Positions 52,482 to 57,251 of a stretch of 64,000 nt of DNA are shown in pieces. Every line of letters starts with the position of its first letter. Within the stretch, counting starts at the first letter, position 1. Made by a program: the position numbers and the translations under genes. This stretch comes from Luteimonas arsenica. Its GTDB lineage: Bacteria; Pseudomonadota; Gammaproteobacteria; Xanthomonadales; Xanthomonadaceae. A model generated the notes under the pieces. It saw only the letters and a program-made list of their open reading frames with translations, had not been told where the DNA came from and did not search any database. The DNA is taken from contig NZ_SJRW01000001.1 of the NCBI RefSeq assembly GCF_004352825.1, positions 124,001-188,000 on the forward strand, read 5' to 3'.

Positions 52482-53402
52482 GTGCGCGCGAAGTTCGACC
52501 AGTACTGGGCGCTGACCAAGCCGCGCGTGGTGGCGCTGATCGTGTTCACCGCCTTCGTGGGCATGTTCATGGCCGTGCCCGGGCTGCCGCCGCTGCGGCA
52601 GTCGGTGTTCGGCTTCATCGGCATCTGGCTGGCCGCGGCCTCGGCGGCGGCGGTCAACCACCTGATCGACCAGCGCATCGACAAGGTGATGGTGCGCACC
52701 GCCGACCGCCCGCTGGCGACCGGCAGCCTGAAGCCGGCGCAGGTGCTGGCGTTCGCGGTGTTCCTGGGCGCGGCTTCGATGGCGATCCTGATCGCGCTGG
52801 TGAACCCGCTAACCGCGGCGCTGACCTTCGCCTCGCTGATCGGCTACGCCATCGTCTACACCGGCTTCCTGAAGCGCGCGACGCCGCAGAACATCGTCAT
52901 CGGCGGCATCGCCGGCGCCGCGCCGCCGCTGCTGGGCTGGTCGGCGGTGACCGGCATGCAGAACGAGTGGGACTGGGCGCACGCGCTGCTGCTGGTGCTG
53001 ATCATCTTCGTGTGGACGCCGCCGCACTTCTGGGCGCTGGCGATCTTCCGCCGCGAGGACTACGCCCGCGCGCTGGTGCCGATGCTGCCGGTGACCCACG
53101 GCGTGCAGTACACGCGCTGGCAGATCCTGCTCTACACCGTGCTGCTGGTGGCGGTGACCATCCTGCCGTGGGCGGTGGGCATGAGCGGCCTGTTTTATCT
53201 CGGCGGCGCGCTGGTGCTGGGCCTGGTGTTCCTGTGGTACGCGTGGAAGCTGATGGACCCGCCTGACGAATTCTTCGCCATGCGCGTCTTCAACTACTCC
53301 GTCGTCTACCTGATGGCGCTGTTCGCCTTCCTGCTGCTCGACCACTGGCTGCTGCCGTTCCTGCAGCCGGCACCGCTGTTCGAGCTGCAGCGGGTGGGGT
53401 GA
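52482..53402 (+). CDS. ctaB: protoheme IX farnesyltransferase (heme O synthase)
   Basis: A 306-residue UbiA-family prenyltransferase that farnesylates protoheme IX. Start is GTG ([21 protein letters not shown]). The two Asp-rich motifs are [19 protein letters not shown] and (in the second half) [16 protein letters not shown]; both fit CyoE/CtaB. About nine membrane segments. Last gene of the cox operon; a repeat element begins immediately after the stop. Confidence 0.95.
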
Positions 53403-53651
53403 AAAGCTTTGCCACGGATGACGCGGATAAACGCGGATTTACACGGATAAAGCAAAGGCAGGAGAAAAAGCCTTTGGCCACGGATTTACGCGGATTACGC
53501 GGATCTGGCCGAGGCAAGATTATTGGTCAGGGCGCGTCCGGAACAATCCGCCGAAAGCCATCTGACAAAAGAAGCCTGTGCAGGGCGCGGTGTCGACACT
53601 GGCCTCGGCCAGATCCGCGTAATCCGCGTAAATCCGTGGCAAAAAGCTTTT
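53403..53651. repeat. element of tandem CGCGGATWWA units with a 39-bp perfect inverted repeat
   Basis: Three copies of a module that starts near AAAAGCTTT and GCCACGGAT. The first (about 53403-53450) is a run of 10-bp units of type CGCGGATAAA/CGCGGATTTA/CACGGATAAA. The second (53477-53515) and third (53602-53640) are exact reverse complements over 39 bp, with an 86-bp spacer that encodes nothing recognisable. The third copy is followed by AAAAAGCTTTT. It lies between ctaB and the convergent immunity gene and could form a long cruciform or terminator-like hairpin. Confidence 0.85.
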
Positions 53652-53654
53652 CCG

Positions 53655-54056
53655 TTACTCCCCAGGCCGCGCCCGCACCGCGACGTCGGCCAGGTTGGCG
53701 GGGGTGATGTCCCACTGTTCGGGGGCGTCGTATTCGAACTCGACGGCGAGGCGGCCGGTGGCGCGCCAGAGGCGGAGGATGCAGGCGCCCCAGGGTTCCT
53801 TGTTCGGGACGCGGGTGGCTTCGCGCAGGTCGTCGAAGGCGGGGCCGAGGCTGGCGTCGTCGGGGGTGGCGGCGTGCGGGGTGCCGTCGGGGTCGTAGCG
53901 GAAGCCGCTCAGGCGGCGGGCGATGGCGCCGTCGGCGTAGCGGACGATCAGCGCGTAGCCGTGCCACTGGCCGTCGGACACGGCGGGGTCCGCCACCAGC
54001 AGCTTGCCGATGCGGGCGATCAGTTCATTGCGGTCCAGCGCGGGGCCTGCGTGCAT
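53655..54056 (-). CDS. candidate YezG-like (DUF600) immunity protein
   Basis: A 133-residue protein. The segment NKEPWGACILRLWRATGRLA then VEFEYDAPEQWDI matches the DUF600/YezG pattern (polar-PW...L.....G+..v.F.Yd). YezG is the antitoxin of the B. subtilis LXG toxin YeeF, whose C-terminal nuclease resembles the gene directly upstream here. The start at 54056 leaves 16 bp to the toxin stop; an in-frame ATG at 54086 would overlap it. Function is inferred from pairing. Confidence 0.65.
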   Translation of the reverse strand: MHAGPALDRNELIARIGKLLVADPAVSDGQWHGYALIVRYADGAIARRLSGFRYDPDGTPHAATPDDASLGPAFDDLREATRVPNKEPWGACILRLWRATGRLAVEFEYDAPEQWDITPANLADVAVRARPGE

Positions 54057-54072
54057 GCGGGGCAGTGTGCCG

Positions 54073-55323
54073 TCAGGCCGCGGCACTGTCGATCATGTCG
54101 GGCATCTGCCGGGCGGCGATCGCGTCGAAGCCCTGGTCCGCGCCGTTGGTGAAGGCGATCAGCGAGGGGTCGTAGACCACGTTGCCGGTGACCGGGTCGA
54201 TGACTTCGTAGTCGACGTGCACTTCATCGGGGCGATGCGAGTCGTTGCGCAGCAGGTCGATGTCGATCCGTACCTCCATGCCCGCGCCGATCCAGTCGCT
54301 CCACTCCTGCTCCATCTTCGCGTAGGCACCCTGGTTGAAGCTCGAGAACTGCGGGAACATGTTCACTTCGCCATGCCCCTGCGCGAAGCGGTAGGCCACC
54401 AGGTGGCCGACGTCGTCGCCGCTGCCCTTCATGTCGTTGTCGACGCGGAACTTCGACTGCGCGTTGCCTTCGATGCGGTCGGAGTCACGGCCGCGGCTCG
54501 AGGGCTCCCAGGTCAGCACGGCCTCGGCGCCGGTGGGGCGGCCGTCGGCGTCGAGCGTCCAGGTGATGTCGTTGACCTCGCCCGAACCGGCTTCGGTGAC
54601 GGTGCCGCGCACTTCGCCCGGCTCCACGTCCTCGCTCACCGCCACGGTGCCGTCGGGCACCTGGCCGGTGAGCAGCATGCGGTTGTACTGGGCGAGGTCG
54701 GCGCCGGCCGGGTCGGACAGCATCGTGGTGTGGCGGGTGAAGTCCTCGCGCGCCAGCGCCGGGGAGCCGGGTCCGCCGTCGCGTGGGGCGTCGAACAGCT
54801 GCTCGGAGCCCGTCATCACGCGCAGGCCCTTCTTCTCGGTCATCTCCAGCGACAGGCGCAGGTCCTCGATCGAATCGAGGTCGTTGGCCGCGGCCAGTTC
54901 ACGGAAGGCGGGCTCCAGCGCGGTGCCCACGTAGTCGGCGCCGTGCACCTCGATGCGGGTGCGCGGCGGGATCGTCGAGGGGTCGAAGGGATTCACCGCG
55001 GCCATCGCCGCCGGCGTCGCCTCCTCGTTGCGCAGGGTGACCTCGTAGCGCACCGGGACCTCGGTGCCGGCGCCGTCGGGGCCGCGCACGGTCATCTCGC
55101 CGCTGGCTTCGTAGTGGGTGTTCCACTGGTCGGAGCGCTCGCCGCTGGTCACCACGCTGCGCGGGTCAAGCTCGAAGGCGACCTCGTCGGGCTTGGCATC
55201 CAGCAGCGACGGATCCAGTCCGTCGGGGCGGGCGGCCTCCGGGCCCCGCAGGCAGCCGCCGAGGTCGCGCCAGGGCTGTGGCGGGGGCAGGGGGGCAAGC
55301 AGGCTCTGGGCTTCGAACGACAT
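54073..55323 (-). CDS. DNA/RNA non-specific endonuclease-domain toxin
   Basis: A 416-residue protein with no signal peptide or membrane segment. Residues about 255-380 match the Endonuclease_NS_2 (YeeF C-terminal nuclease) family: SKFRVDNDMKGSGDDVGHLV with H307 as the probable catalytic base, NMFPQFSSFNQGAYAKMEQE (N321, Q325, N330, E338), then RPDEVHVDYEVID. The N-terminal 250 residues are unfamiliar, Pro-rich at the start (APLPPPQPW). No LXG, Rhs, PAAR or C-terminal XVIPCD signature was seen, so the delivery route is unclear. Immediately upstream of the candidate immunity gene. Confidence 0.78.
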   Translation of the reverse strand: MSFEAQSLLAPLPPPQPWRDLGGCLRGPEAARPDGLDPSLLDAKPDEVAFELDPRSVVTSGERSDQWNTHYEASGEMTVRGPDGAGTEVPVRYEVTLRNEEATPAAMAAVNPFDPSTIPPRTRIEVHGADYVGTALEPAFRELAAANDLDSIEDLRLSLEMTEKKGLRVMTGSEQLFDAPRDGGPGSPALAREDFTRHTTMLSDPAGADLAQYNRMLLTGQVPDGTVAVSEDVEPGEVRGTVTEAGSGEVNDITWTLDADGRPTGAEAVLTWEPSSRGRDSDRIEGNAQSKFRVDNDMKGSGDDVGHLVAYRFAQGHGEVNMFPQFSSFNQGAYAKMEQEWSDWIGAGMEVRIDIDLLRNDSHRPDEVHVDYEVIDPVTGNVVYDPSLIAFTNGADQGFDAIAARQMPDMIDSAAA

Positions 55324-55422: not shown

Positions 55423-57165
55423 CTACCCGCCGGCCCGGGCGCCGCGGGCCTGCAGCAGCTCGCGCAGCTCGGCCTTGTCGGTGGCGTCCAGGCCTTCCTC
55501 GCGCTGCTTGGCCAGCAGTTCGTCGACGCGCTGCTGCAGGGTCTGGCGGTCGAGCTGGGCGATGGCGTCACTGAACTCGCGCGCCCAGCCGGCCTCGTCG
55601 CCGGGCAGGTCGATCGCGGCCAGCTTGTGCAGCGCGTCCGCTTCCTGCCGACCCTCGAAGTGGGCAAGCACGGCGCCGGTGCCGATGTCCGGTCGCGCGC
55701 TGACGATGGCCACCAGTTCGGTCAGCAGGTCGATGCCCGGCTGGCGCAGGGCCACGAAGCGGTAGGGCGGCTGCAGCTCCAGCGCCAGCTGCGGCTTCTG
55801 CAGCAGCAGGGTGATGGCGCTGCGCACCAGGCTGCGCTTCGGTGCATTGCCCGCGGGCGCGCGTCGGGCACGGGCCGCCGGAACGTGGACTTCGGGCGGA
55901 GCGCTGCGCGCGCCGACGCCGGTGAGCTCGGTCAGCCGCTGCTGCATCAGGTCGGCGAAGGCACCGTCGGGCAGCTGCGCCAGCATCGGCTTCGCGCGCT
56001 CGGCCAGCCGCGCCTTGCCGTCGAGCGTGGCCAGGTTGATGCCGTCCTCGGCCAGGTGGTCGAACAGGAACTGCGACAGCGGCGTGGCCTGCGCCAGCCG
56101 CGCCTCGAAGCCGGGTGCGCCCTCGTTGCGGACGATGGTGTCGGGATCCTCGCCGTCGGGCAGGAACAGGAAGAAGGCCTGGCGGCCGTCCTTCATCCGC
56201 GGCAGCACCGACTCCATCGCGCGCGCGGCGGCGCGGCGGCCGGCGGCGTCGCCGTCGAAGCAGAAGTACACGTCGGGCGCGTTGCGGAACAGCAGTTCGG
56301 CGTGGTCGGGGGTGGTCGCGGTGCCGAGCGTGGCCACGGCCTGGCTGATGCCGTGCTGGAACAGCGCCACCACGTCCATGTAACCCTCGACCACGACCAG
56401 GCGCGCGATCTTCTGGTTGGCCTGGCGTACCTGCCACAGGCCGTAGAGCTCGCGGCCCTTGTGGAACAGCGGGGTCTCGGGCGAGTTGAGGTACTTGGGC
56501 GAGTCCTCTGGCTTCAGCACCCGGCCGCCAAAGGCGATCACGCGGCCGCGGCGGTCGTGGATCGGGAACATCACCCGGTCGCGGAACTTGTCGTAGACAT
56601 GGCCGCGGTCGTTCTTCGACAGCATGCCGGTGCGTTCGAGCAGGGACACCCGGCGCGGGTCGCTGCCGAGTGCGTCCTTCAGCGCGGAGAAGCCGCCGGG
56701 CGCGTAGCCGATGCCGAACTGCTCGCGGATGGCGCCATCCAGGCCGCGGCGCGACAGGTAGTCGTCGGCCTCGGTGCCGGGCACCAGGGCGGCGCGGTAG
56801 AAGCGCGCGGCCTCGTCGAGCACCCCGAACATGTCGCGGGTGTCGGGATTCTCGTTGTGCTGGCGGGTCTCGCGCGGCACCTCGATGCCGGCGCGCCTGG
56901 CCAGTTCATCGACCGCATCGAGGAATTCGAGCCGGTCGAAGTTCATCAGGAACGAGATCGCGGTGCCGTGCGCGCCGCAGCCGAAGCAGTGGTAGAACTG
57001 CTTGGTCGGCGACACCGTGAACGAGGGCGAGCGCTCGTCGTGGAAGGGGCAGCGCGCCGAATACTCGCGGCCCTGGCGCTTCAGCGGCACGCGCGCGCCG
57101 ATCACCTCGACGATGTCCGTCCGGGCGAGCAGGTCGTCGATGAAGGCGTCGGAGAGGCGGGCCAT
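55423..57165 (-). CDS. dnaG: DNA primase
   Basis: A 580-residue DnaG. The N-terminal zinc ribbon has C39, H42, C60 and C63 in RCPFHDERSPSF and FYHCFGCGAHG. The RNA polymerase core includes EQFGIGYAPGGF and the TOPRIM motifs VVVEGYMDVVAL and YFCFDGDAAGRRAA. The C-terminal helicase-binding domain is present but divergent. ATG 57165 is the likely start. It is the last of the rpsU-yqeY-yihY-dnaG run; rpoD, usual in this operon elsewhere, does not follow, and the nuclease/immunity pair does. Confidence 0.95.
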   Translation of the reverse strand: MARLSDAFIDDLLARTDIVEVIGARVPLKRQGREYSARCPFHDERSPSFTVSPTKQFYHCFGCGAHGTAISFLMNFDRLEFLDAVDELARRAGIEVPRETRQHNENPDTRDMFGVLDEAARFYRAALVPGTEADDYLSRRGLDGAIREQFGIGYAPGGFSALKDALGSDPRRVSLLERTGMLSKNDRGHVYDKFRDRVMFPIHDRRGRVIAFGGRVLKPEDSPKYLNSPETPLFHKGRELYGLWQVRQANQKIARLVVVEGYMDVVALFQHGISQAVATLGTATTPDHAELLFRNAPDVYFCFDGDAAGRRAAARAMESVLPRMKDGRQAFFLFLPDGEDPDTIVRNEGAPGFEARLAQATPLSQFLFDHLAEDGINLATLDGKARLAERAKPMLAQLPDGAFADLMQQRLTELTGVGARSAPPEVHVPAARARRAPAGNAPKRSLVRSAITLLLQKPQLALELQPPYRFVALRQPGIDLLTELVAIVSARPDIGTGAVLAHFEGRQEADALHKLAAIDLPGDEAGWAREFSDAIAQLDRQTLQQRVDELLAKQREEGLDATDKAELRELLQARGARAGG

Positions 57166-57193
57166 GGCTCCCGCCATGATCGCATGCGCCAGT

Positions 57194-57251
57194 GTGGGAG
57201 CGGCTACAGCCGCGATCCCGGCCATCCGATCGCGGCTGTAGCCGCTCCCAC
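57194..57251. repeat. REP-like inverted pair (dnaG-yihY gap)
   Basis: Two 23-bp REP units in inverted orientation: left arm GTGGGAGCGGCTACAGCC.. from 57194, right arm ..GGCTGTAGCCGCTCCCAC to 57251, with a 12-bp spacer. It starts about 29 bp upstream of the dnaG start and 36 bp downstream of the yihY stop. Confidence 0.88.

Follow-up and report, generated by a model that had tools for sequence, protein, structure and literature searches.

The closest described systems pair a nuclease with a small inhibitor. EsaG of Staphylococcus aureus is encoded just downstream of the toxin EsaD (PMC10765036), whose residues H528 and N551 are the catalytic histidine and the metal asparagine of a His-Me finger, and the nuclease domain of Bacillus subtilis YeeF is inhibited by YezG, a partner of the DUF600 type (PMC9616950). 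In the survey of Zhang et al. (2012; PMC3482391), DUF600 appears under the name Imm36 in alpha-, beta-, gamma- and delta-proteobacteria; for all but the delta class a link to Tox-NucA is marked. The locus described here lies in a stretch of 64,000 nucleotides (the window) from Luteimonas arsenica, on contig C1 of a Luteimonas-type genome of 2.97 Mb (G000). It comprises a gene for a protein with a C-terminal nuclease domain (the toxin) followed by a small gene (the partner). The original prediction had read them as a YeeF-like nuclease with a YezG-like immunity gene and had presented such a pair as unusual in a proteobacterium; the Imm36 listing, which already contains the same pairing, does not support the latter view. 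Our preferred reading is an effector–immunity pair with a carrier module, to which we give a probability of about 0.6.

In Pfam the toxin scored 57.2 bits against Endonuclea_NS_2 (PF13930), above the curated cut-off of 27 bits, and the family was matched in 11 of 11 toxin orthologues. H307 and N330 of the toxin align without gaps with H528 and N551 of EsaD and are invariant across 72 sequences. The signatures from which the domain had been predicted (GDDVGHLV, NMFPQF and MEQEW) are all present in the 416-residue open reading frame (ORF). At E ≤ 1 in Pfam the toxin matched two nuclease families only, with no LXG, RHS, PAAR, VgrG or XVIPCD (PF20410) domain, in agreement with the earlier statement that LXG, Rhs, PAAR and XVIPCD markers are missing; an RHS_repeat match at chance level (E = 0.19) was recorded for one of the 11 orthologues. 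In the partner both predicted motifs, PWGACILRLW and FEYD, were found, and structure comparison identified its predicted fold as the BH3703/EsaG fold. Its assignment to DUF600/YezG stood in this structural respect but not by score, which was 15.4 bits against the YezG-like/DUF600 family (PF04634) for a curated cut-off of 21.7; matches to this family were weak in nine of 11 partner orthologues (best E = 0.013). We regard the pairing of a nuclease with an EsaG-like partner as strongly supported.

The pair is real beyond chance, because the GC contents of both genes by codon position (0.71/0.48/0.93 and 0.75/0.52/0.93) resemble those of dnaG (0.74/0.46/0.94) and because full-length toxin orthologues (>550 bits; type A below) occur in 22 of the 52 genomes of the genus. 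A 1123-residue ORF on the opposite strand looked non-coding by the same measure. The closest named relatives, judged by the toxin, were Luteimonas padinae (94% identity), L. colneyensis (89%) and L. terricola (83%), and 44 of the 52 genomes hold an Endonuclea_NS_2 gene. The predicted linkage of the two genes in homologues was kept at every type A locus examined: the partner directly follows the toxin at 11 of 11 loci with a full toxin in a first set (12 loci, less the type B locus L012, which has no full toxin) and at 19 of 19 in a second. In 26 further Endonuclea_NS_2 loci four N-terminal types were distinguished, namely A (that of the window; five loci), B (polyproline and a short helical part; three), C (three) and D (15). 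The next ORF matched the partner profile strongly at eight loci (five of type A, three of type B), weakly at the three type C loci (7e-9 to 8e-8), very weakly at two type D loci (2e-4) and not at all at the other 13. Among these 26 loci, linkage with this partner therefore holds for types A and B and is not supported for type D. In 15 sister genomes (L066, L068, L071–L075, L077–L082, L084 and L085) the type D nuclease, of about 365 residues and with an N-terminus reading MGILDGLG... or close to it, replaces the type found in the window.

In two plasmid-borne proteins a related nuclease forms the C-terminal end, namely an RHS protein from Pseudoalteromonas (38.9% identity; identified by tblastn) and, from Bosea, a DUF4781 protein (34.3%). 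The genes that follow them scored 62 and 89 bits against the partner profile. Such an arrangement is that of a toxin–immunity cassette. Together with the analogy to known systems, it makes an effector–immunity function likely. An origin of the whole protein from plasmids was rejected, as the four plasmid records matched the nuclease half only or mostly and none covered 80% of the query; so was a phage origin, with no phage match at 1e-5. PHROGs gave nothing for the toxin, the module-family member P0166 or the protein P0218.

The N-terminal part, which had been described as unfamiliar, has no Pfam name but is a recognisable module common to LysM proteins and XVIPCD effectors. Genome searches with the toxin returned, besides orthologues, mostly proteins of about 600 residues that match part of residues ~35–320 (E from about 1e-5 to 3e-13 per genome). 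The genome of the window itself encodes one of these, and LysM was present in all four that were scanned. A database search with the LysM member from this genome (8000 candidates were scored in each protein database search) found relatives in Luteimonas and Lysobacter kin, myxobacteria (Archangium, Hyalangium, Myxococcaceae), Cellulosimicrobium and others; XVIPCD was confirmed by Pfam in two of them. A result of 120 of 120 for the module is not an independent rate, since the proteins had been retrieved with a LysM member. Across 198 genomes of the family, with at most 14 candidates scored per genome, the module gave 49 matches in 38 genomes and 13 of 54 genera. Twelve proteins picked by hand from the 49 were analysed in Pfam: seven carried LysM, five XVIPCD and none both. 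As judged from sequence, the module recurs with LysM at its front, XVIPCD at its back or the nuclease at its back. Residues 1–30 of the toxin were modelled with a predicted local distance difference test score (pLDDT) below 50. With the whole toxin as query, Foldseek returned nothing from the PDB at E ≤ 0.001, and the 50 VIA matches listed span residues 147–416 only; the viral library yielded three matches at E ≤ 0.001, the best of them an EssD-like entomopoxvirus protein. This whole-toxin structure search gives no ground for calling the fold of the module new. No paper linking the module, LysM and XVIPCD or X-Tfe was found in the open-licence PubMed Central literature, and among 12 articles listed there none containing 'X-Tfe' also contained 'LysM'.

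The LysM paralogue with the same module (L147:8598-10406, on G000:C1, also L022) has flanking genes that look unrelated. No immunity-like neighbour is apparent by eye, and the protein lacks a hydrophobic stretch of the signal type, unusual for one that binds peptidoglycan. Its PHROGs matches lay only around the LysM part.

In the preferred reading, the C-terminal His-Me finger domain would be a non-specific, metal-dependent nuclease, lethal in the cytoplasm. The small protein from the next gene would bind this domain and so protect the producer and its kin. Most likely it would act as EsaG does on EsaD, entering the nuclease sheet and thereby disrupting the active site by drawing its parts away from each other. 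The N-terminal module of about 190 residues would be the carrier or targeting part, some members of its family carrying XVIPCD (the tag for the type IV secretion system X-T4SS) or LysM, and would probably export the nuclease or direct it to the envelope of the target. The domains, the active-site residues, the linkage, the homology of the module and the predicted fold of the partner are shown here; toxicity, neutralisation, export and action against other bacteria are properties that we infer.

Several observations weigh against this reading. The partner falls below both the Pfam and the NCBIfam cut-offs, its profile matched EsaG in the PDB at chance level only (E = 0.37), and of the two plasmid partner genes one gave a YezG match under the Pfam cut-off (0.0013) and the other none. 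The toxin carries no export tag and its first ~60 residues contain no hydrophobic signal-like stretch (maximum Kyte–Doolittle value 0.07 in 19-residue windows). XVIPCD implies export for other members of the module family only, and by the tag only, and three members scanned (P0166, P0226 and P0240) have neither LysM nor XVIPCD. Neither a full VirB4 (at least 150 bits; VirB4 by Pfam cannot separate X-T4SS from a conjugation system) nor VipB of the type VI secretion system (T6SS) was found in four of the 22 type A genomes. One of these, G005, has a partial VirB4-family match of 51 bits, over the Pfam cut-off; in the other three (3/22), G066, G063 and G053 (completeness 100, 94 and 89), neither a VirB4-family match nor VipB was found. 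The history of the locus points the same way. Over 13 loci (the 12 with cyoE in the fetched 6 kb and the window), pairwise identities correlated with those of CyoE at r = 0.71 for the module, 0.81 for the nuclease half and 0.71 for the partner, with 0 of 999 permutations as high. The nuclease half was more conserved than the module (mean identities 68 and 54%; partner 58%, CyoE 85%), the opposite of what is expected of a fast-swapping polymorphic toxin. Divergence in step with CyoE agrees with common descent and a long stay at a single locus, in a set that leans to conserved loci because it was picked for cyoE beside the pair; this history differs from that of toxins with often-swapped C-termini.

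These observations leave room for an intracellular toxin–antitoxin or abortive-infection module, in which the N-terminal module would serve for sensing or oligomerisation, with the nuclease freed on loss of the partner or firing of the sensor. The missing export signal, the conserved locus descending in step with CyoE and the presence of the pair in some genomes that have neither full VirB4 nor VipB are all consistent with it. It also has a precedent in Lysobacter enzymogenes, where Le1637, a phospholipase-type protein that lacks XVIPCD but is related to an X-T4SS effector, is reported to be toxic, neutralised by its neighbour and defending its own cell (PMC10989847), on account of which this alternative stays alive. 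It is opposed by the related cassettes that end RHS and DUF4781 proteins, by the LysM or XVIPCD of module-family members and by the phage search above; a known anti-phage system was rejected, PADLOC giving no match at E ≤ 0.1. We judge it somewhat unlikely. Another reading makes the toxin a nuclease that is secreted for scavenging and inhibited inside the cell, as in NucA/NuiA. Such a nuclease would be expected to show a signal-like stretch, which the toxin lacks, and the partner matches EsaG/DUF600; this explanation we consider highly improbable.

With respect to delivery, full VirB4 was present in 12 of the 22 type A genomes and 17 of the 30 others, and VipB in eight and seven, respectively (15 of 52 in all). 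This cross-table does not support X-T4SS or T6SS as the sole export route, and because some type A genomes are without both, keeping the pair seems to require neither, although a machine may have been missed. The toxin does not resemble a T6SS effector, having no PAAR, RHS or VgrG part in a genome in which no VipB was found. Atypical type IV effectors without XVIPCD, Le1637 among them, are on record in L. enzymogenes and Xanthomonas citri (PMC10989847). We also considered that the toxin might be an unusual X-T4SS effector whose N-terminal module, in place of XVIPCD, brings it to VirD4. A full VirB4 is encoded in the genome of the window along with two XVIPCD proteins, the same module forms the body of some XVIPCD proteins, and XVIPCD proteins occur in 13 of 22 type A but 0 of 16 type D genomes (15 of the latter typed by sequence and one by elimination). 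The toxin itself, however, has no XVIPCD and shows no association with VirB4, and we find this route quite improbable. Still unlikely, in our estimate, is a broader proposal that the module marks a route, new for export or targeting and independent of X-T4SS and T6SS, in Lysobacteraceae and predatory myxobacteria, in which it joins LysM, XVIPCD or a nuclease with its immunity gene, the short N-termini B (polyproline), C and D serving like nucleases in sister genomes.

The two XVIPCD proteins of this genome are not among its two module matches. Read by eye, one (L149:4156-5691) is hydrolase-like and adjoins an ORF that may encode a lipoprotein, and the other (L150:2167-3498) is peptidase-like with a peptidoglycan-binding part. 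G066 and G053 hold XVIPCD proteins without any VirB4-family match; these are perhaps orphan effectors, or a secretion machine may have been missed there.

The features of the locus are given in Table 1. The shorter partner gene is the likelier one, because the closest orthologues begin at the ATG corresponding to 54056; the 143-residue version would start at a GTG. With the 133-residue start, 16 nt separate the toxin stop from the partner. The toxin adjoins dnaG as predicted, following it on the minus strand after 99 nt, and cyoE or dnaG was present in the fetched 6 kb of 15 of 19 orthologous loci. The further suggestion that the pair occupies the usual place of rpoD after dnaG did not hold: rpoD lies on contig C2 (~319.8–321.0 kb), and a six-frame scan, which found this rpoD as a control, detected no RpoD motif in the window or at any of the 19 orthologous loci. 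At two loci where dnaG is separate from the toxin (L039 and L042), the next ORF after dnaG is cytochrome b561-like by eye. Directly downstream of the partner gene is a 53-nt inverted repeat (53466–53518 and 53599–53651; arms 94% complementary and 80 nt apart). Smaller CGGATTTACGCGGATT repeats lie next to it, and a 13-nt piece taken from the arms has no other copy in the window with up to one mismatch allowed. The inverted repeat looks like a small mobile or repetitive extragenic palindromic (REP)-like element.

Table 1. Features of the toxin–partner locus (window coordinates).
Feature	Position	Strand	Basis
Partner (immunity) gene, 133 residues from the conserved ATG	53655..54056	-	Orthologue starts; the 143-residue ORF extends to 54086
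Toxin gene, 416 residues	54073..55323	-	ORF; signature motifs
Endonuclea_NS_2 (PF13930) His-Me finger nuclease, residues 250-374	54202..54576	-	Pfam; catalytic-residue alignment
N-terminal module, residues ~32-228, VNPFDPSTIP motif	54640..55230	-	Common to LysM proteins and XVIPCD effectors
dnaG, flank	55423..57225	-	In the fetched 6 kb of 9/19 orthologous loci
cyoE, other flank	52482..53402	+	In the fetched 6 kb of 12/19 orthologous loci

The carrier module relates a nuclease toxin without a signal to LysM proteins and to XVIPCD effectors of which it forms the body. The delivery route of the toxin is testable because in some relatives the module is fused to an export tag or a cell-wall-binding domain, and the pair offers a test case for how untagged toxins leave Lysobacteraceae, if they do. 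It is also an example of a likely effector–immunity pair that keeps to a single locus and descends with its lineage. EsaD/EsaG (PDB entries 8guo, 8gun and 8gup) has the same nuclease fold, catalytic residues and, as predicted here, partner fold. Differences are that EsaD is a substrate of the type VIIb secretion system and that the partner shares only 18% identity with EsaG in the structural alignment. The N-terminus of EsaD differs from that of the toxin. YeeF is described as an LXG protein (PMC10765036), whereas the toxin has no LXG at the Pfam threshold given above. The X-Tfe effectors of the bacteria-killing X-T4SS carry a C-terminal XVIPCD, which the toxin lacks, and some XVIPCD proteins have its N-terminal module. 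The carriers of Tox-NucA in the Imm36 survey are reportedly classical trafficking domains, unlike the LysM/XVIPCD-family module that carries the toxin of the window. The pairing is thus known biology, and the carrier module with its family ties is the new part.
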